DNA of 64,000 nucleotides, taken from the NCBI GenBank assembly GCA_037447655.1, contig JBBHKE010003309.1, positions 22,542-86,541 on the forward strand, written 5' to 3'. The DNA comes from Zygnema cylindricum. Its lineage: Eukaryota; Streptophyta; Zygnematophyceae; Zygnematales; Zygnemataceae. This document shows, piece by piece, positions 6,801 through 54,169 of the stretch. The notes beneath the pieces were generated by a model. The model was not told the DNA's origin. It searched no databases and was given only the letters and a program-made list of their open reading frames with translations. The position numbers and the translations under genes were made by a program. Each line of letters opens with the position of its first letter. The stretch's first letter is position 1.

Positions 6801-7071
6801 TGAGCTTGGTCACCTTAAGAGTGGTGTGCAGAAAATATTTTGTGATAATCAGGCAGCAATCGCTATTTCTGCCAATCCTAAATATCATTTTAAAGCCAAA
6901 CACATGGACATCAGACTCAGCTTTGTTAGAGAAAAAGTAGAAAACAAAATAATCAGTTTAGAGTACAGACCAGATAGTGAGATGGTAGCAGATATGATGA
7001 CCAAACCTGTGCCTTCCCCTAAGTTAAGTTTTTGCAGGGAGAAGTGTGGTATGAAATTAAAGATTGACTAG
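3821..7071 (+). pseudogene. Pol of copia element A (protease, integrase, RT, RNase H), broken
   Basis: Continues in the Gag frame. Protease motif DSGAS lies near 3870. The GAG-pre-integrase zinc motif (WHKRLGHV then CRGCAQGK) is at about 4260-4400. Integrase core landmarks are SDIWGP, RSDNGGEY and NGVAERLNRT (about 4460-4790). Reverse transcriptase (about 5600-6300) has LYGLNQAPRQWN and the catalytic YVDDL. RNase H (about 6420-7060) has WSDASYGD, FCDNQAAIAI and a KHMDIRLSF-type end. In-frame stops: TAG 4052, TAA 4427, TGA 4832, TAG 6410. A 1-bp deletion near 6736 shifts frame, then a TAA at 6772. All domains are present, so decay is by point lesions only. Confidence 0.9.
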
Positions 7072-7084
7072 AAAATAAGGGGAG

Positions 7085-8133: not shown

Positions 8134-9142
8134 ATCCACAAACATTGTCCTACACATTGCATGGAAGCCTACTCATGAGTGGCAAACCATACCGTTGATG
8201 TTTTTCAAACACAATTTTTTTATATATAGGCCACATTGTTTTGGCGTAGCTGCATGCACAATAAGTCATGAGCAGATTATAGAATGTTTTACCTCCGGGT
8301 TGAGACCTATTAGAAGGTTGCGTGAAATCGCAATGAGTCCACAAAATATGCTGGGGTTCAGGGTTTAGAATTTCTCTGCATCACCATTCATCTTTGTGGT
8401 AATAATCAAGTTGCACGTGTCATTTTGTTGAATGGCGTACAGACGAACACATGGTGGGGGATATAGAGGTGGGCCTTTTTTTATGCATACCTGAAGCAAG
8501 CAAGATTTCATAAGACAAACCAATTCAATTTCCAAAAAAAATTGGGAAGGAGTCATGAGTTAACAATAAGAGCAACCAAGGGTTTTTTATACTGGATATA
8601 AATGGTGGTATAATCTATAGAGCCATATGACTGCATGTGTTGATTGTATTCAAAGTAATTCACATCACTAAAAAAGGTGGGTCTTTGGTGCATAACCTTA
8701 AGCATAGGCATTATTAGCCTAAAGAGCCCTCAAAAACCTTAACAAATTTCCGAACTCATATTTTCTTTCACATCTGTCAAAGGCTCAGAACCACTCCAAT
8801 AACCAAGAGGATACCATGAGTGGCCACGTGGGAAATTGGGAGGTGTACGGGAGAAAATGAGCTATGGAAAATGGGAGGAATAAAAAGAAGCAAAATGAAA
8901 AGAAGAGGGGAAAAGGGACAAGTGGGAGGAAAGGGCGAGAGGAAAGACAAAGAGAAGGGGAGATGACGTGAAAAATAAGTGGAAATGGAATATGAGGAGA
9001 AGATAAAAAGCCATTAAAGGGAGAAGGAAGAGGAAGATCAGAAGAAAGAAACAAATGGAAAAAGAAGAGTAAAAATATGGGATAAGGGAAGAAGGAAACA
9101 TCAGGCGAGGGGGAGAAAGGGAGAAGGAGACAGGGTAGCAAG
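8134..9142. other. Spacer between elements A and B, purine-rich right half
   Basis: No coding region recognised. 8815-9142 is an A/G-rich tract on the plus strand, like those in the LRR introns. 8745-8835 is a diverged direct copy of 15135-15225, the sequence on the other side of element B, so B inserted between two old repeat copies. Confidence 0.5.
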
Positions 9143-9981
9143 TGTTGTTCTGAGACAACAGCCGGAACCGAAGACGATGAGGATGCTGGTGTAGTCATCT
9201 CGGAACCAAACCAAGCAAGAAACTTTCACAAAAACCAGTCTGAAAAACAGCAACTTCAACAGTTGATAAAAACCAAACCAGAGACACAATAGCTCTGAAA
9301 ATCTACCACAATGTAGATAATATCAAGATGAACATACACACAAAATTACAAGTAATTCTGCTAACAGATCTGTGAGATATCCACAGATGAAAATGCCAAA
9401 AACAGGCTGTACAGTTTTGACTACAAAATGTTCATACCTTCAAAGTTATCTAAGTCCTACTAATATACACCGAAGCCTATGCTGCTGAACGTACGGAGGC
9501 ATACCAGCCGTACAATAAATACCTGCGGCTCGAACCGAACAAGGTACGTCATACAAAAAGATTCCTTTACTAATCAACTAACCACACAAAGACAAAAATC
9601 TACTTAACTAGATATTTACAAAGGAGTAGGATTCTATATGCCACGTCATTTGTCGTGTATGTGGCTCACACGGACCAGCATTTGTCGGCGGTCTCCCTCA
9701 GCCGCGTACATATCACATTCGGCACCGTAAACAAATCTCCATGTGCCATTTTGTCCTCAAGTGTATATATGCACAAACAATCGGATATTCTGGAGTGTCC
9801 TCTTTCTTGTAGTGACTTGTGTCTCGAGAGTGTATACAAAGGTGTACTCCCTACCGATCTAGTGGAACATCAATTCTGGTATGTAATGAAACGAACTTAC
9901 AACCAAACATATGCTAATTCGTGAAACTCTCTCTCCCTCACACTCGAGGCATAGAGAGGACTAAAGCTTTCCAAAACAACA
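9143..9981 (-). repeat. 3' LTR of element B
   Basis: 839 bp, near-identical to 14064-14902. Read on the minus strand it follows a polypurine tract ending GGGGAG and ends CAGAACAACA at 9143. An 89-codon antisense frame in it also occurs in the other LTR and has no support as a gene. Confidence 0.93.
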
Positions 9982-10004
9982 CTCCCCTAAAGCTTTAGAC
10001 TCTT

Positions 10005-12367
10005 CTAGCCACTTAAGCCACATGCCTCTCTGCAAAACTTTAATTTAGGTGCAGGCAAGGGTTTAGTCATCATGTCAGCAACCATCTCCTCATCTGGTAA
10101 ATAACTGAGTTTCAAAACTTTTCCCATAACCTTCTCTCTCACAAAGTGTAGCTTGATATCAATGTGTTTGCTCTTAAAGTGATGGCTAGGGTTAGATGCA
10201 ATAGCAATGGCAGCCTGATTGTCACACCACACTACTTGAGGTCCAGATTGCATAAACAAAAGCTCTTGAAGGAGAGACTTTACCCAAAGTAACTCTTTGA
10301 CGGCTGCGCTAGCCGCCATGTACTCAGCCTCCATAGTAGACTGAGCTGTCACCTTCTGAAGTTTGCTGCTCCAACAGCATGTCCCACTTCCAATCTTCAG
10401 AATGTATCCACTAGTAGAGCGTCGGCTTGGCATATCTCCTAGCTCGCATCGCTCCATGTCTGAATTTTTACTTCCTCTCCACCGAGAGAGAGTCGGAGGT
10501 TTCGAGTTCCTGCAAGATATCGAAGAACTCTCTTTGCTGCCTCCCAATCTGACTTCTTTGGATTTTGCAAAATTCGGCTTAAGGCTCCAACAGCTGCTGC
10601 AATATCCGGACGGGTACAGTTCATGAAGTAGATGAGGCTTCCGACGATCTGCCTGTAAGGAATGGAGGACATAAAATCTGCCTCCCCTGACTCCAAAGAG
10701 TCATCAATCACAACCCCACCATGTGATTCTTTCCCTTCTATTTTCTGTCTGAACTCCATGGGAGTAACACTTCCTTTTGCCTCTGACATGCCGAACCTTT
10801 CAAGCATGTTTCCAATGGCTTCCTTCTGTGTCAAAAAAATTAGTCTTTGTTTTCTATCCCTTTCTACCTGAATTCCCAAAATATACTTAGCCTCCCCTAA
10901 ATCTTTCATTTCGAACCGGGAATTTAGAGCTGATTTTATTTTGTTGATTTCATTAATGGATTTGCTTAGCAACAGCAAATCATCAACATAAACAGCAATA
11001 TATATCACTCCATCTTCCCCTTCCATAACATAAACTGAATGATCTGAACTGATTCTAGTAAAGCCAAGATTTGTCAAAAATTCATCCAGTTTTAGGTTCC
11101 ACTGTCGTGGAGCCTGCTTCAGACCATAAAGGGACTTCAACAATTTACAGACCAGATTTTCTTTCCCTTTTTCTACATATCCCTCTGGTTGCTTCATATA
11201 TATAACTTCCTCCAAATCCCCATGCAAGAAAGCTATTTTCACATCCATTTGATGCAATTCCATATCCTCTATTGCTGCTAAAGATAAGAGAATCCTAACA
11301 GTAGGAAAACGAACTACAGGTGAGAACGTCTCTTCATAATCAATGCCCTCTTTCTGGCTATACCCCTTAGCAACAAGCCTAGCCTTTTATCTTTCAATGG
11401 TATTATCGGGATTCAGTTTTAACTTGAATACCCACTTACAACCAATCGCTTTTTGATCCGGTGGAAGTTCCACAAACTCCCAAGTTTGAGCCTCCATAAT
11501 TGACTTTATCTCGTCATTCGCCGCAGCAATCCACAGATCTTTTTCCGGAACGGAGAAAGCTTCTTGAATGGTAAGAGGCTCCCTTGTGATTGCAGAATAA
11601 GCATGATCCACTCGGTCACCTCTCAGCCGGCTGCTTTGTCTTCTTCCCTCCGGAAAATCTGAAGCGAGAATTGTTGGTTGCCGAGGCAGTCTTGGAGGAG
11701 GAGGAGGAGGAGGAGGTCCGGTAGTAGTTGTAATAGTAGGTGGATCAGGCAGCCCCAAAACATGTGGTAGTTCAGATGGAGAGGAAGAAACCGTTGTTTG
11801 CTTGAAAGGAATCTGCTCAAGGATGACATATTCCTGCAATTTTTCTGCCTTCTCTGCCTCATTCATGCTAAAAACATCAACAGATTGACTTTCTTCTTTG
11901 ATCTGAATATTCCTAGCAATCTGAATTGTATTTTTCTGAGGATTATACACTCTATATCCTACGGACTCATCATCATAGCCCAAAAATATCCCAGGTACAG
12001 ATTTCGGACTTAATTTCCAATTTGGAAGGTTATCCAACATAAAACACTTACTCCCAAATACTCTAAAGTGACTAACATTTGGCTTTCTTCCTGTCCACAT
12101 TTCATAAGGTGTTTTATCCTTCACAAATCTGGTTTCTATTCTATTTCTAATGTAAGAAGCACACTGAAAAGCTTCTCCCCAAAATTTTGGATCTACACCT
12201 TTATCCATCATCATAGACATAGCACATTCAGTCAAGGTCCTATTGAGTCTTTCAGCCACACCATTCTGTTCCGGAGTGTAAGGAACAGTAAACTCATGAG
12301 AAATTCCATTTTCTTTCAAGTATTCAGCAAAGGCATTTGATACATACTCTCCGCCGTTGTCAGATCG
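10005..12367 (-). pseudogene. Pol of copia element B (integrase C-part, RT, RNase H), broken
   Basis: Continues the frame ending at 12368. Integrase landmarks RSDNGGEY and YTPEQNGVAERLNRT lie just after the TGA. A proline-rich stretch near 11690-11750 precedes reverse transcriptase, which has [12 protein letters not shown] and catalytic [14 protein letters not shown] at about 11387 replaces the Tyr of the usual [11 protein letters not shown] motif in the same frame. At about 10439 a 1-bp deletion in the WSDAS-YGD motif shifts RNase H into another frame (to 10005, ending FCREACGLSG). Repair of three positions would reopen the whole polyprotein; no domain is missing. Confidence 0.9.
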
Positions 12368-14119
12368 TCAAGCAAGGATCGATTTTCCGTGAAGTTTCTC
12401 CGCCCAGATCCGGAAATGCTTGAAATGTGTGAAGACCTCGCTCTTCTCCTTCATAAAGTACACTCGGCTGAAACGTGAGTGGTCATCAGTGAATGTAACA
12501 AGGTATTTCCTTCCACCAAGGGAAGGAACTTTGGCCGGTCCCCATACATCCGAGTGGATAAGGCCGAGAAGATCCTTTGCTCGATGATCTGAAGTCTGAG
12601 GTAAGGGAAGCTTATGAAGCTTTCCTAGAGCACAACCATCACAAACATGGGATTCCTTTTCACCAAGCTTGACACCTTCTATCATATTAGTCTTCACCAT
12701 CTTTTCAAGCCTCTCATTATGAACATGCCCAAGCCTTTTATGCCACAAAACATTTTCAGAAAGGACACTGGAGTACACAAAATCAACTTTATTAACCAGG
12801 TCCATCCGATACAACATGTTTGGGCCTCTAGTTCCCACTAAGGCTACTCTCCCATCTTTGCTTACTATCTTTTTGCCTTTGCTCTGAAGAACATCAAAAC
12901 CTTTACTTTCTGCAACTGAGGTAGAAAACAATTTTTTCTTAAATTTAGGCACATATAACACATCATGCAAAGTTCTTTTTACAGCTTTGCCATCTATCTC
13001 ACAATTCAGATCTATGCTACCCTTAGCATTAGCTTCCACCGTGGCACCACAAGCATAAAAGATTTGACGAGTAGGGATAGGTGTCATATCCTTGAAATAC
13101 GATTTGTTCCAACACATATGGGAAGAACTTCCGGAGTCCATAATCCACCCGAGATCTCTCTCTCCCTCCATCATCTTTGCCATAGCAAAGAACTCGGTGT
13201 CATCAGTTTTAGGAAAACTAACAACCTCTGATTTCTCCTTCTCCATCTCCTTTACCGGCTCCTCTTCCACTGCTGAAAAAGCTGCGGTTTTGCTCGGAGG
13301 TTTCGGTGTAAATGGAGCTCCTCTCACCTTCCATCCTTTGCGATAAGAACCTGTTTCACACGCTTTTATATACAAAGGACAAAACTTGTACAAATGACCA
13401 TTATTATAGCAATAGACACACCGTTCATATTGCTGAAATGACTGATTTCCTTGAAATCTATTATCTCTCTGAAACTGAGCATTGTAAGCTACAGCTGGCT
13501 TTCCAGAATTAAATGCCAATTGATTCGCTTCTTCTTCTAGCACATACTCTATAGCTGTAGCTAGATTCCACTGTGTCTTATCCAATTTTTTCAGTTCATC
13601 ATAGGCACCTTTATACTCACTAGGAAGCCCCCTCACTAAAATCATTGCTTGGTGATACTCAGGAAATGAACCACCTGAACATGCATTTTCAGCAACTAGA
13701 AGTCTGAATTTATTGCAATATTCTGCCATGCTTCCGCCTGTATACTTATATTCCCAGATCTGCCCAGCAGTTATAATCTCATGTTGTGCATTAGCCCTAG
13801 AATATGTCTTTTTCAAAGCATCCCAAATCTCTGATGCTTTAGAAGCCTGAATATATGTCATATGCAGCTCCTTAGATATCATTAATTTTATCAAATGAAG
13901 AGCCTGCTCATTCTTTTGATCATAGGTTACATCAGTTTCTACCATAGATCCATTAACAACATCAAAAAGCTTTACTTGTACAAAATACGACCTTACAAGA
14001 TCTGCCCAATACAGATATTCTCTCCCATCAAAAACCGGAATTCGTGAAGGTGGGCCCATAACCTGTTGTTCTGAGACAACAGCCGGAACCGAAGACGATG
14101 AGGATGCCGGTGTAGTCAT
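12368..14119 (-). CDS. Gag, protease and integrase N-part of copia element B
   Basis: 583 codons from an ATG in the LTR (14119), reading through the primer-binding site (QVMGPPSR). Order: Gag core with YTGGSMAEYCNKFRLLVAE and LVRGLPSEYKGAY; CCHC knuckle CVYCYNNGHLYKFC; protease motif WIMDSGSSSHMC; zinc-binding pre-integrase region LWHKRLGHVHNE...CDGCALGK; start of the integrase core (SDVWGPAKVPSLGG, FTDDHSRFS). It ends at a TGA immediately before RSDNGGEY, in the same frame as the rest of integrase, so the stop is a point lesion. Confidence 0.9.
   Translation of the reverse strand: MTTPASSSSSVPAVVSEQQVMGPPSRIPVFDGREYLYWADLVRSYFVQVKLFDVVNGSMVETDVTYDQKNEQALHLIKLMISKELHMTYIQASKASEIWDALKKTYSRANAQHEIITAGQIWEYKYTGGSMAEYCNKFRLLVAENACSGGSFPEYHQAMILVRGLPSEYKGAYDELKKLDKTQWNLATAIEYVLEEEANQLAFNSGKPAVAYNAQFQRDNRFQGNQSFQQYERCVYCYNNGHLYKFCPLYIKACETGSYRKGWKVRGAPFTPKPPSKTAAFSAVEEEPVKEMEKEKSEVVSFPKTDDTEFFAMAKMMEGERDLGWIMDSGSSSHMCWNKSYFKDMTPIPTRQIFYACGATVEANAKGSIDLNCEIDGKAVKRTLHDVLYVPKFKKKLFSTSVAESKGFDVLQSKGKKIVSKDGRVALVGTRGPNMLYRMDLVNKVDFVYSSVLSENVLWHKRLGHVHNERLEKMVKTNMIEGVKLGEKESHVCDGCALGKLHKLPLPQTSDHRAKDLLGLIHSDVWGPAKVPSLGGRKYLVTFTDDHSRFSRVYFMKEKSEVFTHFKHFRIWAEKLHGKSILA
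14049..14063 (-). promoter_or_regulatory. Primer-binding site of element B
   Basis: GGTTATGGGCCCACC on the minus strand, adjoining the LTR end. Identical to that of elements A and C, again in the gag frame. Confidence 0.85.
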
Positions 14120-14902
14120 CTCGGAACCAAACCAAGCAAGAAACTTTCACAAAAACCAGTCTGAAAAACAGCAACTTCAACAGTTGATAAAAACCAAACC
14201 AGAGACACAATAGCTCTGAAAATCTACCACAATGTAGATAATATCAAGATGAACATACACACAAAATTACAAGTAATTCTGCTAACAGATCTGTGAGATA
14301 TCCACAGATGAAAATGCCAAAAACAGGCTGTACAGTTTTGACTACAAAATGTTCATACCTTCAAAGTTATCTAAGTCTTACTAATATACACCGAAGCCTA
14401 TGCTGCTGAACGTACGGAGGCATACCAGCCGTACAATAAATACCTGCGGCTCGAACCGAACAAGGTACGTCATACAAAAAGATTCCTTTACTAATCAACT
14501 AACCACACAAAGACAAAAATCTACTTAACTAGATATTTACAAAGGAGTAGGATTCTATATGCCACGTCATTTGTCGTGTATGTGGCTCACACGGACCAGC
14601 ATTTGTCGGCGGTCTCCCTCAGCCGCGTACATATCACATTCGGCACCGTAAACAAATCTCCATGTGCCATTTTGTCCTCAAGTGTATATATGCACAAACA
14701 ATCGGATATTCTGGAGTGTCCTCTTTCTTGTAGTGACTTGTGTCTCGAGAGTGTATACAAAGGTGTACTCCCTACCGATCTAGTGGAACATCAATTCTGG
14801 TATGTAATGAAACGAACTTACAACCAAACATATGCTAATTCGTGAAACTCTCTCTCCCTCACACTCGAGGCATAGAGAGGACTAAAGCTTTCCAAAACAA
14901 CA
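14064..14902 (-). repeat. 5' LTR of element B
   Basis: 839 bp. The gag ATG (14119-14117) lies 56 bp upstream of the LTR end, so the serine-rich N-terminus MTTPASSSSSVPAVV is LTR-encoded. A B-box-like GGTTCGAGCC occurs, but I find no A-box at a suitable distance. Confidence 0.93.
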
Positions 14903-15669: not shown

Positions 15670-15813
15670 TTAAGTCTCTTGCACCTGCTGGTATGGTTGA
15701 AGACTGGAGCAGTTGAGGTCTGGATTTGGTGATACGTTTGGATTTCGTGAACCTAAACCAGAAATATTTGTTGTTAACTTGAACATTTGTTCAATTGATC
15801 TGCAACTGTCACC
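15670..15813 (-). CDS. Gene A last exon: second LysM module
   Basis: Acceptor TTTACAG precedes 15813. Phase 0, 48 codons including TAA at 15672-15670. It reads GDSCRSIEQMFKL, then NPDLNCSSLQPYQQV, the LysM pattern GD-(T/S)-C...I...LNC..L...Q.V; the preceding exon supplies YSTTE. The end is abrupt (QVQET). A CAG/GTGCAA within the exon could be an alternative donor, so a further exon is possible. Confidence 0.65.
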   Translation of the reverse strand, partial: GDSCRSIEQMFKLTTNISGLGSRNPNVSPNPDLNCSSLQPYQQVQET

Positions 15814-18800
15814 CTGTAAACAAACGAAAGGTCTTCAAAAATCAAATAAGTGAACGTGAACATAACACAAAGAAAACCATTTTGATAATGGAAATAAATG
15901 AGATGGCTAAGGAGTGCGTGAAGCATCACCCATGTTTTCTAGCCAATTCGCAATGCATTTATGCCTTCCATAATAGCCCTTCAATTTGATTCCTGATTCA
16001 TTCAAATAATTATAACTTACTGACCTCGGTGGTGGAGTAGGGTAATGAACAGTTGCGATATGCTGTCACGTCCACGCTTGTTTTTGCCGGAAGCGGGGAA
16101 TTGCAGTTTAAAGTCTGTACAATTGACATTGTGGTTTATTAGGAGGTAAGGAAACAAATCCAATTTTCCTGATTCATATAGTGTTCAAACGTGTAGTATC
16201 TGTGATTTTTTTTGGCAATGTGTGACTTTACGCCTGATAGGTTGGATGTAACGGTGGTTCTTTGTTTGTTTTTGGTAAATTTACGTTTCCCGAGATACTT
16301 AATATATATGCGACTGTTTCACGACAAAACGTTGTGAAGAAGAAAGTTGTATACCATTTTCTTCATGAGCTTGTACGATAAAAAATGTTAAAATATGTTC
16401 TTTATAAAAATGTAACCTCCAAATGTGAGAGAGACAAAAAAATCTAAGCATATACCCAACAAAATTAAATTACCAGATTCTGATGCGAAAATTTAGCTTG
16501 AGGTATCCCGTAAGCATTATAAATATCACGACACCTCACCGTGCCACCTTCAGGCACAATGTAGGATTTTTGTCCTTCAAGTGTAACACCTGGCAGACAA
16601 GAGAATGGTCATCTGGACATCAGATTCGACGAAGATTTAGGCTTCTTGCGGAATAACAATGCCAAAGAGGAGATATTTAAACACACATAAACTGTATAAA
16701 CAAATAATATTAAATGTAGTCGGTGATCATGACTTGGTTATATGAAATAATACATATAGTAATACATGATCATGACTTGGTTAGCTAGTACAAAAAGTAT
16801 TGTTTCCAATTTCCAGCTCAGTTTTGCTGTGTTTAAAAAACAAAGAGCTCAGTTTTCCTGTGTTCCAAAAAAAGGAACGTGACTTACATCAGGTCTTATT
16901 ACTTACTTGGTACGCATGTGAGGGGGCTTTCGGAATCAGAAAGCGAATAGCCTATGGGGCAAATACAAAGATATGAGCTGGGATTTACAAAAGACCTCAA
17001 ACAGGTGCCAAAACCACATGGATTTTTTGAAAAGAATTTGCAAGGATTTTCTGCAATGTCATTTTACCAACCGATCATTTACATTAGTATGAGAGTAAAT
17101 GGACAAAAAAACCACAAAAATACAAAAATTCAAAAAAATAAATAAAAATAAAAACAAAAAAATGAAAAAAACACAAAACAAAAATTTAGAGGCTTTTCTC
17201 TATGCCCGTTGATTTTTGGTACATGATCTATTTGTATATTTTTTTCGGATTGCAGGTTTTGATGGTTACTAATGTTACGTTTGATTTATTTTCCATGGTT
17301 TTAAAATTCATGCATATAGACCTGGTGCACAAGTCTGGGTTCCGTCTTTATTGTTGGCAAGTCTGGGTTCTGTCTGTATTGTTGACAGCAACAAAGGTTT
17401 TGGTGCACCGGCAAATGTTGGTCTTGCCCGATGGAATACACACTCCATTGCCACAGGGATTCATGAGACCTAGGCCATTTGTCACTTGCAGTTTGTTAGT
17501 CGCAAAATTTTTGCCATTGCAAGGATCTGCTGGAGTAGCATAGAAACAACCACCATAAGAAATTTATACTTTGGTTAAGATATATGAAGATGGCAATATC
17601 CTTATTCGTACAATGTAACGAGTGTTGCTGCATTTCGGTTGCAATTTTTTCGCAATTTCAAAATCTACAACTTCTATACCACTTCAAATTCATAAAAGAG
17701 ACCGTGTCTACTGTGTAAATCATTTTCCTTTTTCCTATCACTGTCATTTCTCTAACCTGTGCAACCAAATCCTATGTGGTAGTGGATACAACAAAAAAAA
17801 ATCAACAAAAAAATTCAGGTCTATGTACATTTCCAGCACTGAAAAATGGTTTGATGGATTTACAAGTGCATGGCTGTGTATTGCAAAAGCTGCTCGTGAA
17901 ATCTCCTAACCGAAAGCACATTTTTATTTTGAGTTGAATTTTCAATATATTCTTATGACAAGTAGCTACTTTGCATTACCGGATGCCTTTACAATAGGTA
18001 TGAAGGCAGGCAAGCTGTTTATTCCGCAAATTCCTGATCCTCCGGTGATCTTGATGCGCATATATCCATTGTCACCCCAGTTTGGGCCCCAAGAATTTCG
18101 GATGAGCCAATAGGGCGGAGTATCGGTCAAATCATATCCGCCCACAACAACAGCATGATCCACTCCACTTGAGAAACAGTCCTCATCAGCAAACACTCCC
18201 TGCAAAACCCACTTAAGTTTTCATTGCTATAAGAGGCTAGACGCTGCAATTTTTACATCAAAGGAACCTCGAGAAGAAAAAACAAACAAATATAATGTAA
18301 TCTTTCGAAAACATATAACCATGAATACTTATCGTCCAAATCGTCTTGCAAATGTCGACACGCGGGTATCCTCATCCTATGAATTTTACAATGGGTACGC
18401 TTTTGCATGCATGCACATACAAATTTACAAGATGTGATAGCCCAGGGGGCTCACGATCATAACCATTTAAAGCAAAATGATACTGAATTATCGAACAACT
18501 CACCTTGTTAGGATCATAATTTAAAAAACTGCTTCCACTTGCTTCTATGCTCACTATGGCTGGCTGTTGTTGTAGAGCTAGAAGCTAGCCCAGCCAGCCG
18601 GCCAGCCGTTCATCCAGACTCGCTCAAACGACGATATAGTCAAAGTGCCATCAGCCTGCACATACAACCGACCAAAAATATAACTAATTCATTTGGAATA
18701 CATGTAAGGCATGTGAAGTCCCAGATATATCAAAAAACAAGGATCACGAACATTCATCACAAACCTTCTTACTGGGTTGGCTTTCAAAATTTGCCTCTGA

Positions 18801-21800
18801 ACAAGGTACCATGGGAAGTGCAGCTCAGTGCAACATACCTGTTGTCCTTTACAATTGCCTGTATACTTGGAGGCCAAAATCAAAGTGTTGTTGGCTGCAT
18901 AATCGAGTGCTTGAAAAAGCCGACCCTCACTAGAACACTCACGCCTCAGGCTAGAACATTCCAAAATTTGCCTTTCCGAAATTGTGGGTATAGGCGATGT
19001 TCCTGCTCTAGCGATGTAGAGGGCACTTTCAATTGCTGAAATGGATGCGAAAAGCGAGCATGTGTCTGGAACAATACAATAAATCCAGCATTTGCGAATG
19101 CTTGATTAAAGAGAATAAAAGACACAACCACTTACACAAAGAAATCAAATTGTGTAACTCAAAATTGTGAATATAATAATGAAATTAATAGTGGAAAGGA
19201 AAAAATTAGTCTACAAAATAATTAAACGAGGAGAAGGCTATAGTGTAAAACTAGCACATCAATTGTTTTGCAATTATTGCATTTGAGATCTTAACGACTT
19301 TAATGCTCCCATCAAAGAGCCTCATTATCTACCAGATGACTAAAACATTCCATTTAAGCTTTACTACTTAAAATGCTAAAAGACATTTTCGATTTTTCAT
19401 GTACAATTTCCAATTATAATGGCCAGAATTCAAACTTGTTTGTAGAAAACTGATTTTCTATGATCACTTCTCAAATGAAAGGGTATGTTTTGCACATACT
19501 GCAGGTTTTCTGGTCTGTAATGGCTGCAACAGCTTGTCGTTTCACCCAATTCCAGCTGGTCGCCACCATCCACGACGGATTGTTGTTAACATCCGGAAGT
19601 ATGTATCCTGCGCTCGCGTAACGGAAGTATCTGTTCATTTCTTGGCGTTTCATTTGTAAAAATTTCCAGCCCGAGACCTCGGACCCCTGAACCACAAAGT
19701 TTTCAACGGGAATGCTTCAACTCTACTGATGCAAACAATCAACATTTCTTTTGAAATTTGAGAATTTATCTAAGCTTCTTCATGCCTGTAGCTTTTATAG
19801 AGGCTTGGTTTTTAAAATAAATGTACACTTAGCTCATAATAGTCTTGTTTGAATCAGAAATGTATATGCCAAAACTTGTGATTGTTGAGGCTCACCAAAA
19901 GTGCACAAATAGTCATTTCCATTCGTGGAGAATCCCTCATTACAAGTGCATGCGACATCAAGCGCACTACATATGCCATGGCCTCCACAAACTTCCGTGG
20001 CCTCTGTCGCATTGCAAAATCTTACGCATTCTGAAACGGATCTTCTGTTTGCATTACCATCAAAACAGCTTGTTTGCAGGGAACTGGAGGTAAAACAGTT
20101 GGTCGCGTTATTTAAACATGTTAGTTTGCTGTTCACAGTAACAGCTGTTCCGGAGAGAAAGTTGTTGCTCACGTCCACCTTTACACTTTCTATAGTTTGA
20201 AAAGTAAGGGTGATTTGGCCTGAAAATAAATTGTTTTGTAAATTCCTGGAAGAAAGGATTGAAATGTTTGAAATGTTAGGACTGAGATCTTGTTGAATAA
20301 TATTCCCCATGTACTCGAACACAAGATGTATGACGAAGGACTTAGTTATGTGACAATTTCAGATTGAAACAATGTTGGAGAACAAGCGTAGCTAAAAATG
20401 CAATCCGGGTGTGTAGACAATCAAAATGACCCATATTCTGAATTTCTCCTTTTATCCAAAGCATTGAATGTTTCACAAAATTATGGACGCTCGATAGAAT
20501 AGATGGTAAATGTGAAAGACTTTGACTTCGAAAACTTGCATTTTGTTGATGTTGTTAACAAGTCTGGACTGAAAAGGTCAAAGGGCATGGCAATTCTCCA
20601 AAATGGGTGATATATTACATTATCTAGAGTGTTATTATTGGGTACATGACCAATATATAGGAGAAATATTTTTCTAAATCTAGGTTAGCTTCATTGATAT
20701 AGATGCCCATATGGGTGAATTCGAAATCTTTTCGGGTGTCCTACGCTCTTAACCCTCTATACTTGTATAGAAAATGGTAATTGCCATGTGAGCGGTCTTC
20801 CATGTTATGAACTTAGGGTGACCGACAAAAAAAAAACATTAAGAAAGGCGAGGTAAGTGACCAGTAATAATCAAAGGTGCTCGATACGACCCAAAAATCT
20901 TTGCGTTTATGTCCTCTGTGGCTTCAAAACATAGCCATTAACTAAACGAGGAAATGTCGTATTAATTCTTCAATGTGTCAAGCCAAGTTCGTGCATTACT
21001 CACAGTTCTTGCAATTTCTGAAGCTTGCTGAAACTTGCGGGAATAATTCCCACCAATTTGTTATTTGATATGTCTCTGCAACAAGCGCATAAAACAAAAA
21101 AAGGAATTTCTAGCTCATCGCTGATAGAATCTTTGTGCTTAGAGTAAATTCGACATAAAAAAATGATTCATGCTTTATTCTTTTGAGAACGTGTAAACAT
21201 GCTATCTACTCCATTTCAAAGTTATCCAGCTAGAAGGTCCCACTAATAACGTTCAAATCGTCTTTCTTTGTGTTCATCATTTACGTTGTAGTTTTTGTTA
21301 CATGGGAGCAGGTATCTTTTAACCACTGGAGTGAAAAATCTTAAACGATTTGTAGGAAAAAAGATCTCACGGAATTTTATATGTATCCACAGCTTGTAAA
21401 GAAATTAGTAGTGCCAATTAAATATTTTTATCTCTTTTACTGGACAGATTTAGCATTTGAGATCCAAGATGCTATTGATTCCTTTCGTGTATGTATAGTA
21501 ACTTGTCTGGTAGCCTTTTCAGCATTGAACTTAATCTATAGCCATAACATTAAAAATTTACAAATTACTAAATTATAGTTATTGTTTCTTTTGAAATTTA
21601 AATTCTGAATTTTACTACTTTTATCGACTAAGATCATAACTAGACATTTGTCATTTAACATTTGATCATAATTGGACACTAGACAGTATTTTTTTTATCT
21701 TTTTCCTTGTAATTTGTGCAACTCCCGACTAATAAAGTATTATGACTCTCTGAAGTGGAATAACCATAGGAGTACACTTTTGACTCGTAATATAACCAGT

Positions 21801-24800
21801 GTCAAGTGCCGTACATGATTTGGAGGGATGTCAGTTTATCGATGGAAGATGGAATGCTTCCGTTCAACTGGTTATTATCTATCCGTCTGTGACACCGAAC
21901 GTTTCCACCCACCAACCACATCCCCCTCCCTCCGCCACTCGCCTCTTTGTCAGTTTAAGAAACAAGGTGATAAACGTAGAAGAAAATGATTGAGAAATAT
22001 TAGCAATTACATTCAAAGGGTTTTTATCCACCAATCACACTTGAAATAATTTTCTTAATCTTAAATTTGAGTTGTCTTTCTACTATAACTGATCAATTTA
22101 ACCTTGTTCCACTTTAAAGATTAAATTAATACACAATTTTAAACTGATTTCTCTTGTAACTGTTAAATTTGACTTTCACACATAAGAAATCCTAGTCACA
22201 ATGCCCTACATGGAACTTTATGGAATACTAAAAATAACTGTTTGTTATTACAATTACTACTATTACCATTTTTATTGTTATGATTGTTACCACTAGTATT
22301 ATTATTGCAATTATTGTTATTACTAATAGTATTAATATAATTTATGAACCTTAATAAATATTAGGGAGTCCATAACATCCAAATATTGAGAAATTGGATT
22401 GCATTTAAAAAAAAAAAACAAAACAAAAAAATCATCGTAATTCAATAATAGAGCATACTCTTATACAAAATTGTCAACTTACACTTAGATGCAACACAGC
22501 AAAACTATTTTGAGCGCACATTTGATACATAGCCTAACGGTAGTGTCATGTGTCTTACAAGGCTATGAGGGATGTCAAGTTAACAATCGACAATGGAATA
22601 CCTCCACTCAACTGGTTGCGATATATGTTTCTGTGACACCAACCCACCAACCCACCCCCTCACCAAGTGCCTTCTAGTTAGTGTGGAGGATAAAAACAAA
22701 AAAATAAACATTAGCTTGAATTTTAACAAAATGCGTATTTATAATCCACCGTCCCATTTTAAAAAACAAATTAATACACAATTCTGAACTAATTTTCTGT
22801 TGTGACTGCTAGATTTCACTTTTACACACAAGAAAATCTTAGTCATATTACCCTACATGGAATACTATCACCTTCCCCCGCTTTCCTAAATTACGTCCTC
22901 AATTAAAATAAATTACCAATATTTTTTATATTTTACTCCAAGATCCCTCTACCTTCCCGTCCTCTCTTCCATCACAAACTACAACCAATTTAAACGGACT
23001 TTTGATGCATAACATGACCAAAATTTTACGTCTCTTACACATTTTGGAGGGATGCCATTTGCGCGATAGATGAAGGAATGCTTCCACTCAACAGGTTGTT
23101 ATATAGCCATCTTTTGATATTTCAGCCTCCCCACACCCCACCAAACGACCACCTCCTCACCAAGAGCCTCCATGTTAAAATGGGCTATAAGGTTATAAAC
23201 AAAAAAAATGTTGAGTATAATTCGTAGTAAATGCGTTTAGTGTTTAGTAAACGCAAATATATTATCCACAAAACATGTTATCTATTTGCACATTCCCCCA
23301 CCCATCCGTACATAACACCGCCCTCCCATCTTCTGTTTTCTTACATAACGTCAACCTTTTGGCTAAGATAAAATAACAAAGATAAAAATCAACAAAGTCA
23401 AATTGTAGATACTAGAAATACAAAGTAAAATCTAAAATCTGGATGTCAAAAAGAAGAGATCGTCATGATCACCTCAGAGAATACATATTTATCTATTCTC
23501 TCCCCCATATATACATATGCATGCACAATTATATCCTACCCCTCCCACCTCTTACCCTTTCCCCTTCGCCATTGCTTTATATGGGCTATTCTAATTCAAA
23601 AGATTGAAGGAAAATACAAAAAAGAAAATAACAAAATGGTAATACTAGGAAACTTAAAAAGATAAAGAAAACGATAAGAACGGGAGAACAAAAAAAACCA
23701 AGAGCGAAATGAATTTTTCTTTCACAACATATGGCTTTGGCCATGATCACCCACCCACCTATTTTCTTTAAAGAGAAAAACACCGAGAAAAACTAGAGAG
23801 GAAAGTACACTTAGTAAATTTAATGTTTTTATATAACATTAACTTCAATTTGTCATCCCTCTCCTTTATTTCCCCGTCCCCCTAACCACCTACCCACCCT
23901 CTTTCCCTATCATGTCATGTAGCTTTAGATGGTCGTGTTTAAGGATAATATTTTTTTGATTTTCAATCGAATAATTATACTTAACGTTATTCAAAATAAT
24001 TTTTAACGGTTTTTAGGAGGACCAACATAATTGTTTATGCATTTTTTACTTCTTACTACGATTACTAGGCATTAGAATTCAATACTTACTAATTACTATA
24101 TATTATTTTGAATTTATTGCAAACTATTATTATTTAAACGTTTATTGTTTGTTATAATGACTATTTTTTGTTTTTGTTTATTATTTATTTATTTTTTTGT
24201 TATTAATAAAAAATTATTCTAATAATTATGTTTATGTTCATGTTCCCTTTTCTACCCCTCCCCTCTTAATCTATCGCAAACCAAAACCATCAAGAGTACA
24301 CTTTTGATACGTAATATCATGTGTCTTACAAGTATTGAAGGGATCTCATTTGATTGATAGAGGTTGGAATACTTCCTTTCAGCTGGTTGGCCCCTAGATC
24401 TCTATACCACCGAGCGTCCCCACGCCACCAACACTTCCCCCATCCCCACAAGTTCCTCAAAGTTATGTGGGCTACATGGTCTTCATCGAAAAACATATAT
24501 ATAAAAAATCTAATCTCTTAGTAAACTAAAGAGTAATTATCCACGCTAAAATATCAAAATGGTAAAGATATTTTTTTTTTTGTTTTCTACTTTAACGAAG
24601 CACTTTCGCCCTCACACATACAATGTGTATCACAATTGCATGTATTTCCATAGCCCCTTTCTCCAACCCCTTAAACCTCACTCGCTATGCTTTCCTATAT
24701 TTTGTCACCAAGTTTTTCCAATTGAAATTGTTTGTTAAAAAAAAAATCATAGCAAAGTGAAATACACAGGACAATTTTACAGATATTAATTGAAAAATAT

Positions 24801-27800
24801 CGCAAATGTGGCTGCCAAAAAACATAATCGTTTTAATCATTTTTCTAAAAGGAAAGATACATGTTCCCCAGTACAAATATGTGTATGTGAAGAAAAAAAA
24901 TATGTATATTGACATTGACTCTGATGCCCTGTCCTTTTTACCTTCCCAGCCTCGCTTCACGTAGATTACTCTTTATCAAATTATTAAAAGAAAAACACAA
25001 AAAAATGAAATAATCCACAAAAAAATTAATTTGGAAAAGAAGAAATTGGTGAAAATATACAACTGTTGCAACACGAAATGTTTTACAATACGTTACCTTT
25101 GTAACCAGCCTCTTTTCCCCTTCGAAAAAAAATAAAAAATCTCAAATTCATGAAATATAAAAACCGGTCAAAATAGAAAAAACTTACAAAAATCCAGTCA
25201 AAATAGAAGAAAAATTACAAAAAAATTAACATGTTTTCCCTTTCCGTTATCATAATCCTTTCTTGCCCTCCTCCCTTTTTCTTCTATCATATCACTAATT
25301 TTCTTGTAATATTTTTGAATATGGGAATAAATCAACGCTGAACTTAAGCATGTTAAAAATATCTTACTAAAACACCCATCTTACAAGTAAAAAGAGAAAA
25401 TATAAAAATGGATTTTTTTCCATTTCAATCGATGATAATTATTGCCTATTACTATATAACATTTGTTACATTCAAATATAAAATTTTGTAACTAAATCTG
25501 GTGATTTCTTAAATATTATTATATTTGAGTTCACAATCCTCTCCCTATCCTCTCCCTATCCTCTCCCTCTACTCTTTTCCCACAACAAACAATAATCATT
25601 TGGAGTACACCATTCATGCGTAACATAACCGAATTGTCACAAGTCTTACAAGAATGTCAGGGATGTCAGTTGACCGATGGACGATGGAATGTTTCCACTC
25701 AACTGGTTGCCAGCTAGATCTCTGTAACACCAGACATTGCCCAACAATGTCGCCCAAATCCCCCCTCAAATGCCTCTTAGTTGTATAGTCTAAAATTTTT
25801 CGCATGAAAAGAAATTGAGTTTAAAATCTTCGCAAATACATCTTAGAGGTTTATAAAGTATTCGTAATTTTGATCCTGACCGATAGATTTGATTGTTGCA
25901 CACACGGTTTCACCAGAAAATCGCATTTGTTTAAAATGTGTTTCTACCTGTTACTCTGAATCTTTGGTAACGTTTAAAAGGTCTTTAACTACCATAACAC
26001 TCGTAAAATAGTTCACTTCTAAAAACCAAGTTAACCATCTAAAGGGCTTTCATCCGATATCGCACTTAAGTTTCAAAATAATGAACATAATGTTTTCTTG
26101 GTTTTGAACTGATGAATTTTAGCTTCACACACACAATGTCCATACGAGATTCTATTTTTTTTTCCATAACCCATCCCCCCAACGCTCACACCTCCACCCG
26201 CCTATACTTTACTTAATTTTGTCACTAGCTTTTCCAATTTGAATCATTTGTTTAAATGATAACAATGGTAAATTACAGTCGGAAAAAATAGCATACAATT
26301 GCTTCAAATTGAAGAAATCTCAAATCTGGCTGGCAAAACTGCAAAATCGTCGTCATCGTTATTCTTAAAAAAAATATACATTTCCATCAAATCTCTCCCT
26401 GCTACATAATATATGTGTGAATAATAATTATATATATATCTATATTTACATCCTATCTATCACCCCTTATTCTCTTTGTACTCCTCTTATCCATTTTAAG
26501 TAAACAATACGAAAAAAAAAACATTTCACAAGACGTCTGTTTTACAAAGACAAAATTGGTGGAAAAAAACAAAAATTTCAAAAAACTGTTTTTTCACATT
26601 ACATGACGTCATGATCCACGCCCTTCTTCCTTGTCACAAAAAAAAACTATATTCCTTAATTCTGTGAAAAGAAGACAACCAATTAAAAAATGGAAATAAA
26701 AAGTATGTATATCTTTATTTTCTACACCACGTTGTTTACATGATAACCTTCGCTTCTTCTTTCTCCTTTTCCTATCACATCACTTAAAATTTCTCAGAAA
26801 CAACAACAAAAGGAAGCTTGTTTTGATGAATGGAACAAAAAAATTATGAAATCATTATCAATATTCACAATAAAAATGAATAGCTAAAATTATTTACTGC
26901 ACTAGAAAGTAGATTTTGGGACATACACAATCAACCGCTAATTCATTTTGTGCATCTTAGAAATAAATATTTACTCAAATAGGGCATAATTGTTGGCGTT
27001 CAAAATATTCTTTTATTATTAGCTATAATTTTTTTGTTCTAATTTTTCTGATTTATTATTAGTTTATTTAATGTATAATCACTATTAATTCTTATTATTA
27101 CTAGAATCATTTGTTTTTATCGCTATAATAATCATTATTTTATTATTATTTATTATTTGCACAAATTACTCCGCCTCCCCCTTTTCACCAACCATCTTTT
27201 TCAATCAAAAACCATATATATAGGCTACGCCTGTGATGTACAACATAACCATAGTGTCATGGGCCTCACAATTCATTGAGTGATGTCATTTGACCGATGG
27301 ACAAAGGAACGCTTCCACTCAACTGGTTGTCATTTAGCCACCTACAACAACGAGCATCCTCACTCCTCTCGGGCAAGTTAATCCTAGTTAGTACAGCCTA
27401 AAAGCTTGTAAACCCATAAAAACTGTGTGTGAATTCTTAGTAAAATTATATTATAGGATTTAAACTCCCACCACACTTGAAAAAAAATTGACTATTCTAG
27501 TTTTGAATTAATTTCTTTTCTTAAGCAACAAAATTGCCATGCCTTCAACAAATTGAAAATTGAAAGGTTTGTTGTTTATTATAATAACTATTTTTTATTT
27601 TAGATTACTAACATAATTTTTTTGTTATTAATTAAACATTATTGTTATAACTAAGTTTATGTTCATGTTTCCTTTTCTACCCCTCCTCTCTTAATCTATC
27701 ACAAACCAAAAACATCAAGAGTACACTTTTGATATGCAATATAACCATAGCGGCATGTGTCTTACAAGTAACGGAGGGATCTCATTTGATTGAGGGAGGT

Positions 27801-28948
27801 TGGAATGCTTCCATGCAGCTGGTTGCCCCCTAGAGCTCTATGCCACCGCAGTTCCCCACTCCAACAAACATCCCCTATCCCCACAAGTGCCTCAAAGTTA
27901 CGTGGGCTACATGGTCATCATCGAAAAAAATATGTATGAAAAGTCTAATCTCTTAGTAAACTAAAGGGCTTTTATCCAACATCACGCTAAAATTTCAAAT
28001 TGGTGAAGGATTTTTTTTTCCCTATTTTAACGAATGACTTTCGCCCTCACACATCAAATGTCTATCACAATTGCATCTATTTCCAAAGTCCCTTTCCCCA
28101 ACCCTTTGAACCCCACTCGCTATGCTTTCCTATCTTTGTTCACCAAGTTTATCCAATTGAAATTATTTGTCAAAAAAGAAAATCGTACCAAAATGAACTA
28201 CAGAGGACAATATTACAGCTACTAACTGAAAATATCTCAATGTGGCTGCCAGAAAACATAATTGTTTTATTCATTTTTCTAAAATGAAATATACATGTTC
28301 TTTAGTATAACAACTGTTGCAACATGATTTTTTTTACAATACATTACCTTTGTAACCAACTTCTTTTCCTCGTCAAAAAAAACGAGATCTCATATTAATG
28401 AAATAAAAAAAACCGGTAAAAATAGAAGAAAAATTACAAAAATCCAATCAAAATCGAATAAAACTTTCAAAAAAAATAACATTTTTTCCGTTTCTATTTT
28501 CATAATCCTCTCTTGCCCTCCCCATTTTTTCTTCCATCATATCACTAACTTTTTTGTAATTTTTTTGAATATGTAACACTTAACTTAAGCAGGTTAAGTA
28601 TATCTTACTAAAACACCCATCTTACAAGGTAAAAAAAAAAAGATAACAATGTTTCGGTATCTATTTCCATCGATGATAACCGTTGTCGATTATATTACAT
28701 TTGCTACATTCTAATATAATTTTTCGTAACTAAATCTGGTGTATTTTAAGATGTTGTTACATTTGATTTCACAATCCTCTGCCTGACCTCTCCATCTCCA
28801 TTTTCCCCAAAACAAACCATAATCATTTGGAGTACACCATTCATGCATAACATAACCAAATTGTCACAAGTCTTACAAAGACGTCAAAGATGTCAGTTGA
28901 CCGATGGACGATGGAATGCTTCCACTCAAATGGTTCAAAGTTAGATCT
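15670..28948 (-). CDS. Gene A: LRR-EGF-papain (C1A)-EGF-LysM-LysM protein, 5' end not found, possibly decaying
   Basis: Reconstructed from consensus splice sites and intron phases. N to C: at least nine 72-bp LRR exons (28948 to 21004), a terminal LRR plus EGF-like exon, four exons of a papain-family cysteine peptidase, an EGF-like exon and two LysM modules, ending TAA at 15670. LRRs usually bind ligands, LysM modules bind N-acetylglucosamine polymers and C1A domains cleave proteins, so a secreted or surface recognition protease is plausible (inference). Catalytic Cys, His and Asn are present. No signal peptide, transmembrane segment or kinase is seen, and no I29 propeptide is evident. Problems: the 18504-18655 exon has a length incompatible with its phases, a 28-bp duplication breaks the 17322-17529 exon, and the EGF-to-peptidase junction phase is unresolved. 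The LRR part and the peptidase part could also be two genes. Confidence 0.6.
16025..16114 (-). CDS. Gene A exon: end of first LysM and linker
   Basis: 90 bp, phase 0 at both ends, acceptor TTGTACAG, donor GTCAGT. It reads TLNCNSPLPAKTSVDVTAYR, then NCSLPYSTTE. The LNC..PL motif completes the LysM begun in the previous exon, and YSTTE starts the next one. Phases match both neighbours. Confidence 0.7.
16474..16589 (-). CDS. Gene A exon: first LysM module
   Basis: 116 bp, phase 1 to phase 0. A strong pyrimidine-rich acceptor (CTCTTGTCTGCCAG) and donor GTAATT flank it. It reads KSYIVPEGGTVRCRDIYNAY, then GIPQAKFSHQNL, matching the LysM signature Y.V..G.T...DI...YGI......N. LysM folds of this type bind chitin or peptidoglycan-like glycans. 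Confidence 0.75.
17322..17529 (-). pseudogene. Gene A exon: second EGF-like domain, frame broken by a 28-bp tandem duplication
   Basis: Acceptor CTACTCCAG and donor GTCTAT, phase 1 on both sides. It reads ADPCNGKNFATNKL, then NPCGNGVCIPSGKTNICRC, a six-cysteine EGF-like pattern. At 208 bp it does not fit phase 1 to phase 1. Removing one copy of the 28-bp duplication at 17331-17386 gives 180 bp and restores the phase. With the duplication a TAA arises soon after the TCQQ stretch. Confidence 0.7.
17331..17386. repeat. 28-bp tandem duplication inside a coding exon
   Basis: Two adjacent 28-bp units (17331-17358 and 17359-17386) sharing AAGTCTGGGTTC and differing at three positions. It lies inside the second EGF-like exon of gene A. 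Twenty-eight is not a multiple of three, so it shifts the frame. Confidence 0.85.
17980..18199 (-). CDS. Gene A exon: C-terminal half of papain-type peptidase (His and Asn)
   Basis: Acceptor GTTTTGCAG at 18200, phase 0. It reads GVFADEDCFSSGVDHAVVVG, then PPYWLIRNSWGPNWGDNGY and GICGINSLPAF. VDHAV carries the catalytic His (codon 18157-18155) and RNSWG the catalytic Asn (18097-18095), as in C1A peptidases. A donor CCG/GTAATG at 17980 gives phase 1, matching the next EGF exon. Without splicing the frame ends at TAG 17966, so a short isoform ending with the peptidase is possible. Confidence 0.85.
18504..18655 (-). pseudogene. Gene A exon: central papain region, frame broken at a GGCT repeat
   Basis: Acceptor TATGTGCAG, donor AAG/GTGAG. 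The first part reads ADGTLTISSFERV and the last part LLALQQQPAIVSIEASGSSF, both typical of papain (compare TISGYEDV and ALLKAVA.QPVSVAIEASG). The two parts are in different frames. Between them (about 18585-18610) sits a GGCTGGC-type short repeat, and the exon is 152 bp although both borders are phase 0. Gain or loss of 4-bp units would explain the shift. A cryptic acceptor GCTAG just after the repeat is an alternative. Confidence 0.7.
18839..19065 (-). CDS. Gene A exon: papain-type peptidase with catalytic Cys
   Basis: 227 bp, phase 1 to phase 0, acceptor TTGTTCCAG, donor CAG/GTATGT. It reads TCSLFASISAIESALYIARA, then ISERQILECS and LFQALDYAANN. Aligned to papain CWAFSAV..IEG, the Cys of TCSLFAS (codon 19060-19058) is the nucleophile and ISERQILEC corresponds to LSEQELVDC. 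The Trp after the catalytic Cys is replaced by Ser, which is unusual. Confidence 0.8.
19500..19686 (-). CDS. Gene A exon: N-terminal edge of the peptidase (oxyanion Gln)
   Basis: It ends with TSWNWVKRQAVAAITDQKTC and donor A/GTATGT (phase 1), which joins the next exon correctly and recreates the Q-x-x-C-x-x-C spacing of papain. The Gln of TDQ (19512-19510) is the oxyanion-hole residue. The best acceptor (GTGGTTCAG before 19686) gives phase 0, whereas the EGF exon ends in phase 1. This leaves a missed micro-exon, another acceptor near 19640, a lesion or a gene boundary. Confidence 0.6.
19896..20245 (-). CDS. Gene A exon: terminal LRRs, Cys-rich cap and first EGF-like domain
   Basis: Acceptor CTTTCTTCCAG precedes 20245 (phase 2) and donor G/GTGAGC follows 19896 (phase 1). 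It reads NLQNNLFSGQITLTFQT and VSNNFLSG (two LRR-like turns), a cysteine-containing cap (LTCLNNATNCF), then an EGF-like motif CNATEATEVCGGHGICS, then ACTCNEGFSTNGNDYLC. The 350-bp length fits phase 2 to phase 1. Confidence 0.75.
21004..21075 (-). CDS. Gene A 72-bp LRR exon 9
   Basis: 72 bp, phase 2 on both sides, acceptor TTGTTGCAG, donor GTGAGT. It reads SNNKLVGIIPASFSKLQKLQ, an extracellular-type plant LRR (N.L.G.IP..F..L..L). Confidence 0.85.
21815..21886 (-). CDS. Gene A 72-bp LRR exon 8
   Basis: Phase 2, acceptor GTCACAG, donor GTACGG. It reads NNQLNGSIPSSIDKLTSLQ. Confidence 0.85.
22559..22630 (-). CDS. Gene A 72-bp LRR exon 7
   Basis: Phase 2, acceptor GTCACAG, donor GTAAGAC. It reads RNQLSGGIPLSIVNLTSL. 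Confidence 0.85.
23039..23110 (-). CDS. Gene A 72-bp LRR exon 6
   Basis: Phase 2, weaker acceptor ATCAAAAG, donor GTAAGAG. It reads NNLLSGSIPSSIAQMASLQ. Confidence 0.8.
24330..24401 (-). CDS. Gene A 72-bp LRR exon 5
   Basis: Phase 2, acceptor GGTATAG, donor GTAAGAC. It reads ANQLKGSIPTSINQMRSLQ. Closest relative in the window is the exon at 27766-27837; flanking introns match too. Confidence 0.85.
25650..25721 (-). CDS. Gene A 72-bp LRR exon 4
   Basis: Phase 2, acceptor GTTACAG, donor GTAAGAC. It reads GNQLSGNIPSSIGQLTSL. Paralogue of the exon at 28877-28948, with matching introns. Confidence 0.85.
27270..27341 (-). CDS. Gene A 72-bp LRR exon 3
   Basis: Phase 2, acceptor GTTGTAG, donor GTGAGG. 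It reads DNQLSGSVPLSIGQMTSL. Confidence 0.85.
27766..27837 (-). CDS. Gene A 72-bp LRR exon 2
   Basis: Phase 2, acceptor GGCATAG, donor GTAAGAC. It reads GNQLHGSIPTSLNQMRSL. Confidence 0.85.
28877..28948 (-). CDS. Gene A first LRR exon found
   Basis: Phase 2, acceptor GTTACAG, donor GTAAGAC. It reads NHLSGSIPSSIGQLTSL. Upstream exons (signal peptide, N-cap) are not recognisable between here and 30520. Confidence 0.85.

Positions 28949-54114: not shown

Positions 54115-54169
<55 letters not shown>

Follow-up and report, generated by a model that had tools for sequence, protein, structure and literature searches.

A multi-copy LRR, EGF, papain-type protease and LysM gene family in Zygnema cylindricum, and a probably inactivated member

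In this work we describe a gene family of Zygnema cylindricum in which plant-type leucine-rich repeats (LRRs), EGF-like modules, a C1A (papain-type) peptidase and LysM-type modules are combined in one predicted polypeptide. The combined order is, on the sequence comparisons made here, a genuine single-gene architecture, because all seven further loci examined in the same genome repeat it over the sequence retrieved for each, as do two Closterium proteins and one ORF with a Trinity name. We therefore find that the architecture has relatives, and see in these sequences no sign of its division between two separate mRNAs, the grounds for doubt named in a preliminary description of the locus. That the architecture and the family exist is very probable, and it is probable that the copy through which they were found is broken; the locus is most likely a recently inactivated pseudogene of a multi-copy family.

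Results

The window, the whole stretch of 64,000 nt that was analysed, comes from assembly GCA_037447655.1 (contig JBBHKE010003309.1, positions 22,542-86,541 of the forward strand). A family profile built independently of the window gave 13 collinear minus-strand matches running from 20292 to 1225 (E up to 0.1) and none in the reversed window. On the minus strand the gene comprises nine 72-nt LRR exons, an EGF-like module, the C1A peptidase, two further EGF-like modules and four LysM-type modules, terminating with a stop at 1174. The preliminary description had recognised the minus-strand plant-type LRRs, an EGF-like motif, the exons of the peptidase and the codons of its catalytic residues, all of which are borne out in the window sequence. 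Its proposed architecture is likewise real, but belongs to a gene that is longer than described, not unique, and broken: the supposed end near 15670 is intron read past the donor at 15685, with exons 8490-8293 and 1410-1174 still to follow, two EGF-like modules rather than one follow the peptidase, and four LysM-type modules were found rather than two.

The LRR array (21004..28948, minus strand) was delineated by a splice and frame scan together with Pfam LRR_14, LRR_1 and LRR_8, and consists of nine phase-2 exons (28948-28877, 27837-27766, 27341-27270, 25721-25650, 24401-24330, 23110-23039, 22630-22559, 21886-21815 and 21075-21004). Each is flanked by AG and GT, is open in frame and carries a 24-residue LxxNxLxGxIP plant-type repeat; all nine reach the top score of 9, while 50 Markov resamples yielded a score of 7 twice and scores of 8 or 9 never. 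The array has been enlarged by duplication of an exon-intron block, with identities of 61/72 (LRR1/4), 62/72 (LRR2/5) and 55/72 (LRR3/6) between duplicate exons and 85-90% between introns. The exons have diverged about as much as the introns (pS 0.24 and pN 0.15 over the three pairs), and therefore show no clear constraint after they were duplicated. Loci also differ in how many LRR exons were found. Three LRRNT searches found neither an LRRNT nor a start exon on either strand of the window. LRRNT_2 is present in the EukProt relative described below (P0001) and upstream of four of the seven paralogues (C1607, C1949, C2631 and C535), the search profile including pieces of three of these four; the C1607 exon scores 23.3 bits by Pfam's own model.

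Downstream of the array, EGF1 (19896..20245, minus strand), whose length of 350 nt is shared by three of the seven paralogues, completes the LRR region and adds an EGF-like module that falls below the Pfam EGF_2 cut-off. Four minus-strand exons then encode the peptidase. PEPa (19500..19686) carries a linker and the peptidase start with the oxyanion Gln (19512-19510); it measures 187 nt against 156, 186 or 189 nt in the paralogues, and clashes in frame with EGF1. PEPb (18839..19065) carries the catalytic Cys (19060-19058). PEPc (18504..18655) is 152 nt long, compared with 144 nt in each of the six paralogues in which it was detected; it contains a short tandem duplication as well as a stop in frame. 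PEPd (17980..18199), 220 nt long as in all seven paralogues, carries the catalytic His (18157-18155) and Asn (18097-18095, in NSWG) and matches PDB sequences. A read-through piece of the window scores 123 bits with Pfam Peptidase_C1. The Cys, His, Asn and oxyanion Gln are present in the window and all seven paralogues. The Trp that follows the catalytic Cys in every paralogue, in P0001 and in both Closterium proteins is Ser in the window, and PEPb has also lost the GGWP motif kept in all seven paralogues.

The window's frame clash falls exactly at the EGF1/PEPa junction, as it might if two adjacent genes, one encoding LRR and EGF and the other peptidase and LysM, had been joined in the preliminary description. 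EGF1 (leaving in phase 1) and PEPa (entering in phase 2) nevertheless interlock at standard splice sites in all seven paralogues, in a search that favours matching phases, and P0001 and the Closterium proteins (P0003 and P0004) are single ORFs. We accordingly reject the two-gene reading, which is very improbable.

The peptidase is followed on the minus strand by EGF2 (17322..17529), whose 208 nt include an imperfect 28-nt tandem duplication (24/28 identical) that breaks the frame; in the paralogues it is 180 nt long in three cases, 171 in two, and 183 and 210 in the others, all multiples of three. EGF3 (16907..17050, 144 nt) reaches 21.1 bits against the Pfam EGF cut-off of 21.5. The LysM-type modules, also on the minus strand, comprise a first module formed by LYSa and LYSb (16589-16474 and 16114-16025; together 16025..16589), a second in LYSc (15685..15813), a third in LYSd (8293..8490; 198 nt as in three paralogues, with one in-frame stop) and a fourth in LYSe (1174..1410; 237 nt as in C1318, with the terminal stop). 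The last two lie beyond two copia LTR elements, one in the LYSc/LYSd intron (9143..14902, minus strand; LTRs 99.8% identical), for which no exact target duplication was found, and one in the LYSd/LYSe intron (1685..8133, plus strand; LTRs 98.5% identical) with the target duplication ATCCA.

A Pfam search of the window recovers LRR and Peptidase_C1, with LysM (19.5 bits against 20.9) and EGF just below their cut-offs. LYSd and LYSe alone give no Pfam match, and the LysM-type and EGF-like assignments in the window rest mainly on alignment to relatives. Elsewhere Pfam LysM reaches 34.8 bits in C1607 and 36-63 bits in P0001-P0004; for EGF, C1607 scores 19.4 bits and P0003, the only one above the cut-off, 26.4. 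In the PDB, the LysM part of P0001 has weak matches to LysM chains from chitinases (best E 0.0038).

Pseudogene or functional copy

The pseudogene reading is based on exon lengths that alter the frame in three places, on two stop codons in frame, on the lost Trp and on the undetected LRRNT exon. At least five disabling changes are present: PEPa, PEPc and EGF2 differ from the paralogues by non-multiples of three, and stops interrupt PEPc and LYSd. Most intron phases had been described as interlocking exactly; the failures coincide with these three exons, whose lengths differ from the paralogues at homologous splice sites. Recoding of the stop codons was rejected, the in-frame stops corresponding to different residues in relatives.

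Any loss must be recent or partial, since the window's protein sequence has not accelerated relative to its sister C1318 (25 versus 28 changes, p 0.78) and its dN/dS against older paralogues is low (0.125-0.177). This relative rate gives no sign of long decay and speaks against an old pseudogene. A further point against the pseudogene reading is that, at otherwise invariant columns, C1607, C535 and C966 show deviations equal or almost equal to those of the window.

The nine open LRR exons and the unaccelerated protein could also be taken to indicate a functional copy, its lesions being assembly errors or bypassed by alternative splice sites. The splice search, which prefers matching phases, did return a clash-free chain in which PEPa, PEPc, EGF2, EGF3 and LYSd are shortened at other AG/GT sites. 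We judge this chain implausible, as it removes conserved cores from five modules. The lesions themselves consist of an imperfect 28-nt tandem duplication, an 8-nt one (read by eye from the sequence), one more frame clash and stops at two different places, none of them an error of the single-base run type; Trp and GGWP are missing from the catalytic N-lobe; and paralogues in the same assembly hold frame-compatible lengths at the lesion exons. A functional window copy is therefore improbable. We conclude that the window copy is probably a recently inactivated member of a presumably secreted family with the order LRR, EGF, C1A papain, two EGF and four LysM, and should not be expected to yield an active enzyme.

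Paralogues and relatives

A copy free of the window's defects exists elsewhere in the genome. In C1607 the reading frame stays open between the first LRR and the terminal stop (924 residues including the stop; no internal stops), with Peptidase_C1, LRR and LysM above the Pfam cut-offs and EGF below. The complete set of five LysM exons was found in C1318, C1607 and C966, and dN/dS from EGF1 to LYSe is 0.098-0.188 over the 13 older pairs of paralogues for which dS is finite.

Outside Zygnema, the Closterium hypothetical proteins CLOM_g12756 (P0003) and Naga37s-1 (P0004) show the order LRR-EGF-C1-EGF-EGF-LysM in a single ORF; they are 36% identical to the window and have several tens of residues inserted inside the peptidase. 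P0001, a 1041-aa ORF that is transcript-derived according to its Trinity name, is 41% identical and carries LRRNT_2, LRR, C1 and LysM above the Pfam cut-offs, with EGF below. P0001 and P0003 have NCBIfam matches below cut-off throughout, all within the LRR region except for one in P0003 that falls in the LysM region. An AlphaFold model of P0001 from four sequences is poor overall (mean pLDDT 40.8) and confident in the LRR part only. Among prokaryotic loci, the best 80 of 173 have matches ending by residue 403 of the 700-residue query, and all 13 viral matches end by residue 326; neither set reaches the LysM part, which begins at about 445.

The preliminary description knew of no family with this order. 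In a literature search of limited reach, none of the papers listed is, by title and start of abstract, on an LRR-papain-LysM architecture, and PMC10945595 concerns another subject. The family seems to be unnamed, as supposed, but it is multi-copy and shared within the Zygnematophyceae, with relatives in desmid algae.

Discussion

Three known systems share parts of this architecture. The LysM-cysteine proteases of volvocine algae join a C1A peptidase to LysM; they are not known to have an LRR head. Plant papain proteases of the RD21 type resemble it in coupling C1A to a Cys-rich C-terminal module (granulin), but they possess an I29 prodomain, for which Pfam gave no match in P0001, P0003 and P0004 (E<=0.1) or C1607 (E<=1), and are not known to contain LRR or LysM. 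Plant LRR and LysM receptor kinases have ectodomains of similar modules, either LRRNT_2 with plant-type LRRs or LysM repeats, whereas the kinase domain is absent from the Pfam hits of the same four sequences; the window gene itself terminates with LYSe, with no C-terminal kinase.

We infer glycan binding, secretion and protease activity for the family, and tentatively propose, from sequence features, that its working members may be tethered proteases whose LysM modules bind wall glycans. The LysM tail would dock the enzyme on GlcNAc-type glycans of the alga's own or a microbial cell wall, the partner of the LRR head would be a protein or peptide, and substrates kept nearby would be cut by the papain domain. 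As the I29 prodomain was undetected, latency would have to be provided by the LRR/EGF part or by another inhibitor.

The earlier suggestion of a sensor-protease fits the family as a candidate role, and does not suit the broken window copy. In its immune form, with LysM and LRR recognising microbes and proteolysis releasing a signal or attacking the intruder, it would accord with the recognition-type modules, the block duplication of the LRR array and the variable LRR number; the same modules, however, suit wall remodelling, wounding or mating, and we consider this role possible but rather unlikely. It could also be supposed that the proteins are mainly lectin-like adhesive scaffolds of the wall with a vestigial protease, given that EGF, LRR and LysM make up most of their length and that no prodomain was detected. 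Conservation of all four catalytic residues and of the Trp after Cys in seven of seven paralogues, together with the low dN/dS from EGF1 to LYSe, argues against a vestigial protease, and we regard the scaffold role as improbable. A similarly low probability attaches to a ligand-gated, wall-tethered protease, in which the LRR head would act as inhibitor in place of the prodomain and ligand binding would free the papain domain; if true, streptophyte algae would have a sensor whose output is proteolysis and not phosphorylation.

The window copy serves as a warning that a first-pass domain reading may rest on a broken gene. In addition, growth of its LRR array by exon-intron block duplication offers a test case for receptor diversification. 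By uniting a receptor-like head with a protease and a glycan-binding tail, a single predicted secreted polypeptide represents a concrete candidate means by which streptophyte algae would couple wall recognition to enzymatic output.

Exon order and extent of the gene

Nine plant-type LRR exons lie on the minus strand of the window between 28948 and 21004; each is exactly 72 nt long, encodes one repeat and has AG before it and GT after it. They are followed by an EGF-like exon (EGF1), four peptidase exons (PEPa to PEPd), two further EGF-like exons (EGF2 and EGF3) and exons of LysM type (LYSa to LYSe). Every one of the nine reached score 9 in a scan for 72-nt LRR exons; the same scan of 50 Markov resamples of the window returned two matches at score 7 and none at score 8 or 9. 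A family profile derived only from four related proteins (P0001-P0004), with the window sequence left out, gave 13 minus-strand matches at E ≤0.1, strictly collinear from 20292 to 1225 (profile positions 231 to 970), the lowest-ranking being the first half of PEPc (E 0.089) and LYSe (E 0.01). The reversed window gave no match to this profile at the same threshold.

The catalytic codons lie where the preliminary description had placed them (Cys, 19060-19058; His, 18157-18155; Asn, 18097-18095). The gene end and terminal stop that it had set at 15670 proved to be intron read beyond the LYSc donor, and tblastn with relatives located two more minus-strand exons farther on, LYSd (8490-8293) and LYSe (1410-1174, including the terminal stop). 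Two copia elements lie in the last two introns, one in each. Within the LRR array, between 29085 and 24132 on the minus strand, LRR1-LRR2 and LRR4-LRR5, introns included, are tandem duplicates of one block, offset by about 3.2 kb and 82-84% identical; growth of the array proceeds by exon-intron blocks.

Exons encoding an N-terminal LRR cap (LRRNT) are present upstream in the paralogous loci on contigs C1607, C1949, C2631 and C535 of the same genome, and none was found in a search of both strands of the window. A second array of 72-nt LRR exons occupies 30521-56457 on the plus strand, with exons at 30521, 31193, 34893, 39721, 51524 (with a stop) and 56386 and a decayed exon near 37111. Its first exon (30521) resembles, by eye, the first LRR after the LRRNT in paralogues such as C1949. 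The 5' part of the window gene has possibly been inverted onto the plus strand, which would explain the missing LRRNT and the plus-strand array together; another possible reading is that this array belongs to a second gene, arranged head-to-head with the window gene. This side of the window also holds long polypurine/polypyrimidine stretches (30000-34500, 37500-40500, 44800-45500 and 56800-60900), several of them duplicated along with the plus-strand LRR exons and yielding long meaningless open frames, and two more LTR elements (40515-44667 and 52426-56022), each with a 5-bp target duplication and LTR identity within 99.8-99.9%.

Paralogous loci in the same genome

The assembly searched spans 352.8 Mb, the window being contig C2482, 22542-86541, with its right edge at the contig end. 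The peptidase exon occurs in at least seven further places, the best candidates having been scored. In stretches of about 12-30 kb analysed around each of seven paralogues, all carry 72-nt LRR exons (four to eight per stretch at score ≥7) and the order found in the window: LRR, EGF1, peptidase and EGF exons and then LysM exons, of which LYSa at least is present in every locus. The full set of five LysM exons was recovered in C1318, C1607 and C966; recovery reached LYSd in C1949, where LYSe was not found in the analysed stretch, LYSc in C1470, and LYSa in C2631 and C535. The C1470 and C2631 genes overrun their contig ends, and that of C535 overruns the analysed stretch.

The C2631 gene (L104-L105) is a young duplicate of C1949, with 94% protein identity, in which PEPc was not detected in the analysed stretch; it is perhaps another damaged copy. 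Elsewhere in the genome (L094-L099 and L101, on C1943, C1521, C1308, C912 and C1296), long open frames, 905-1137 aa in size, match P0001 in its LRR part and differ from the one-repeat-per-exon layout of the window gene.

Splicing found clash-free chains of nearly constant exon lengths for the seven paralogues. C1607 is open from the first LRR to the stop (924 residues counted including the stop, with no internal stops), and C1949, C2631 and C535 have no internal stops across the exons recovered. C1318, C1470 and C966 each retained a single stop after automatic splicing. In the first two of these, the EGF2 donor picked automatically was 9 nt short, and their sequence contains the 180-nt donor position that C1607, C2631 and C535 use; C966 is poorly spliced between EGF3 and LYSb and was not counted as intact.

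Probable inactivation of the window copy

The window copy is very probably broken. PEPa measures 187 nt versus 156, 186 or 189 in paralogues, PEPc 152 nt versus 144 in the six paralogues where it was recovered, and EGF2 208 nt versus 180 (three), 171, 171, 183 and 210, the change in EGF2 being an imperfect 28-nt tandem duplication (24/28 identical). In-frame stops lie within PEPc and LYSd, and two features retained by 7/7 paralogues, the GGWP motif and the Trp that follows the catalytic Cys, are lost. A functional window copy, which we consider improbable, could draw on the clash-free chain that the splice search also found here by shortening five exons (PEPa, PEPc, EGF2, EGF3 and LYSd) at other sites. 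Since the search rewards matching phases, interlocking alone is weak evidence, and since such a chain is obtainable for the window too, the argument for inactivation rests on exon lengths at homologous splice sites.

Of the columns in which all the other sequences agree, the window departs at 16/232, C1318 at 3/228, C1470 at 0/211, C1607 at 12/243, C1949 at 9/235, C2631 at 0/166, C535 at 12/202 and C966 at 60/281; so the window does not stand out by this measure alone. A relative-rate test against C1318 detected no acceleration of the window (25 window-only, 28 C1318-only and 27 shared changes; p 0.78). dN/dS was 0.39 for the window against C1318, 0.36 against C1470 and 0.125-0.177 against four older paralogues with finite dS; older paralogue pairs gave 0.098-0.188, with dS mostly >1 and near saturation, and two young pairs 0.18 and 0.31. 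Because of these relative-rate and dN/dS values, we read the window copy as a probable recent loss following long constraint.

Relatives and possible function of the family

A protein search returned six matches, of which P0001 (from EukProt, a Trinity ORF by name) and P0003 and P0004 (both from Closterium) combine LRR, Peptidase_C1 and LysM; P0002 covers the C-terminal part of the architecture, and the remaining two (Phytophthora and Theileria) have just the peptidase domain. The relatives indicate a green plant lineage for the window, probably a streptophyte. In the tree, the window clusters with C1318 and C1470 (100/99) and P0002 with C966, and P0001 forms a long branch of unsure placement. 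This is a C1A protease family bearing an LRR head and a LysM tail; among the papers listed in a literature search none was on this architecture, a result that does not establish its absence from print.

The observations that bear on mechanism are the domain order, the catalytic residues in the paralogues and the low dN/dS. Pfam scans gave no match to the papain inhibitory prodomain (I29), and among solved structures the C1607 peptidase scored highest by sequence with ficin, protease omega and ervatamin. By eye, P0001 and P0003 have a hydrophobic N-terminus, which suggests that the family proteins are secreted. The LysM part, given its domain type and weak PDB matches to chitinase LysM, would bind glycan, the LRR part may choose the partner, and the peptidase would cut locally.
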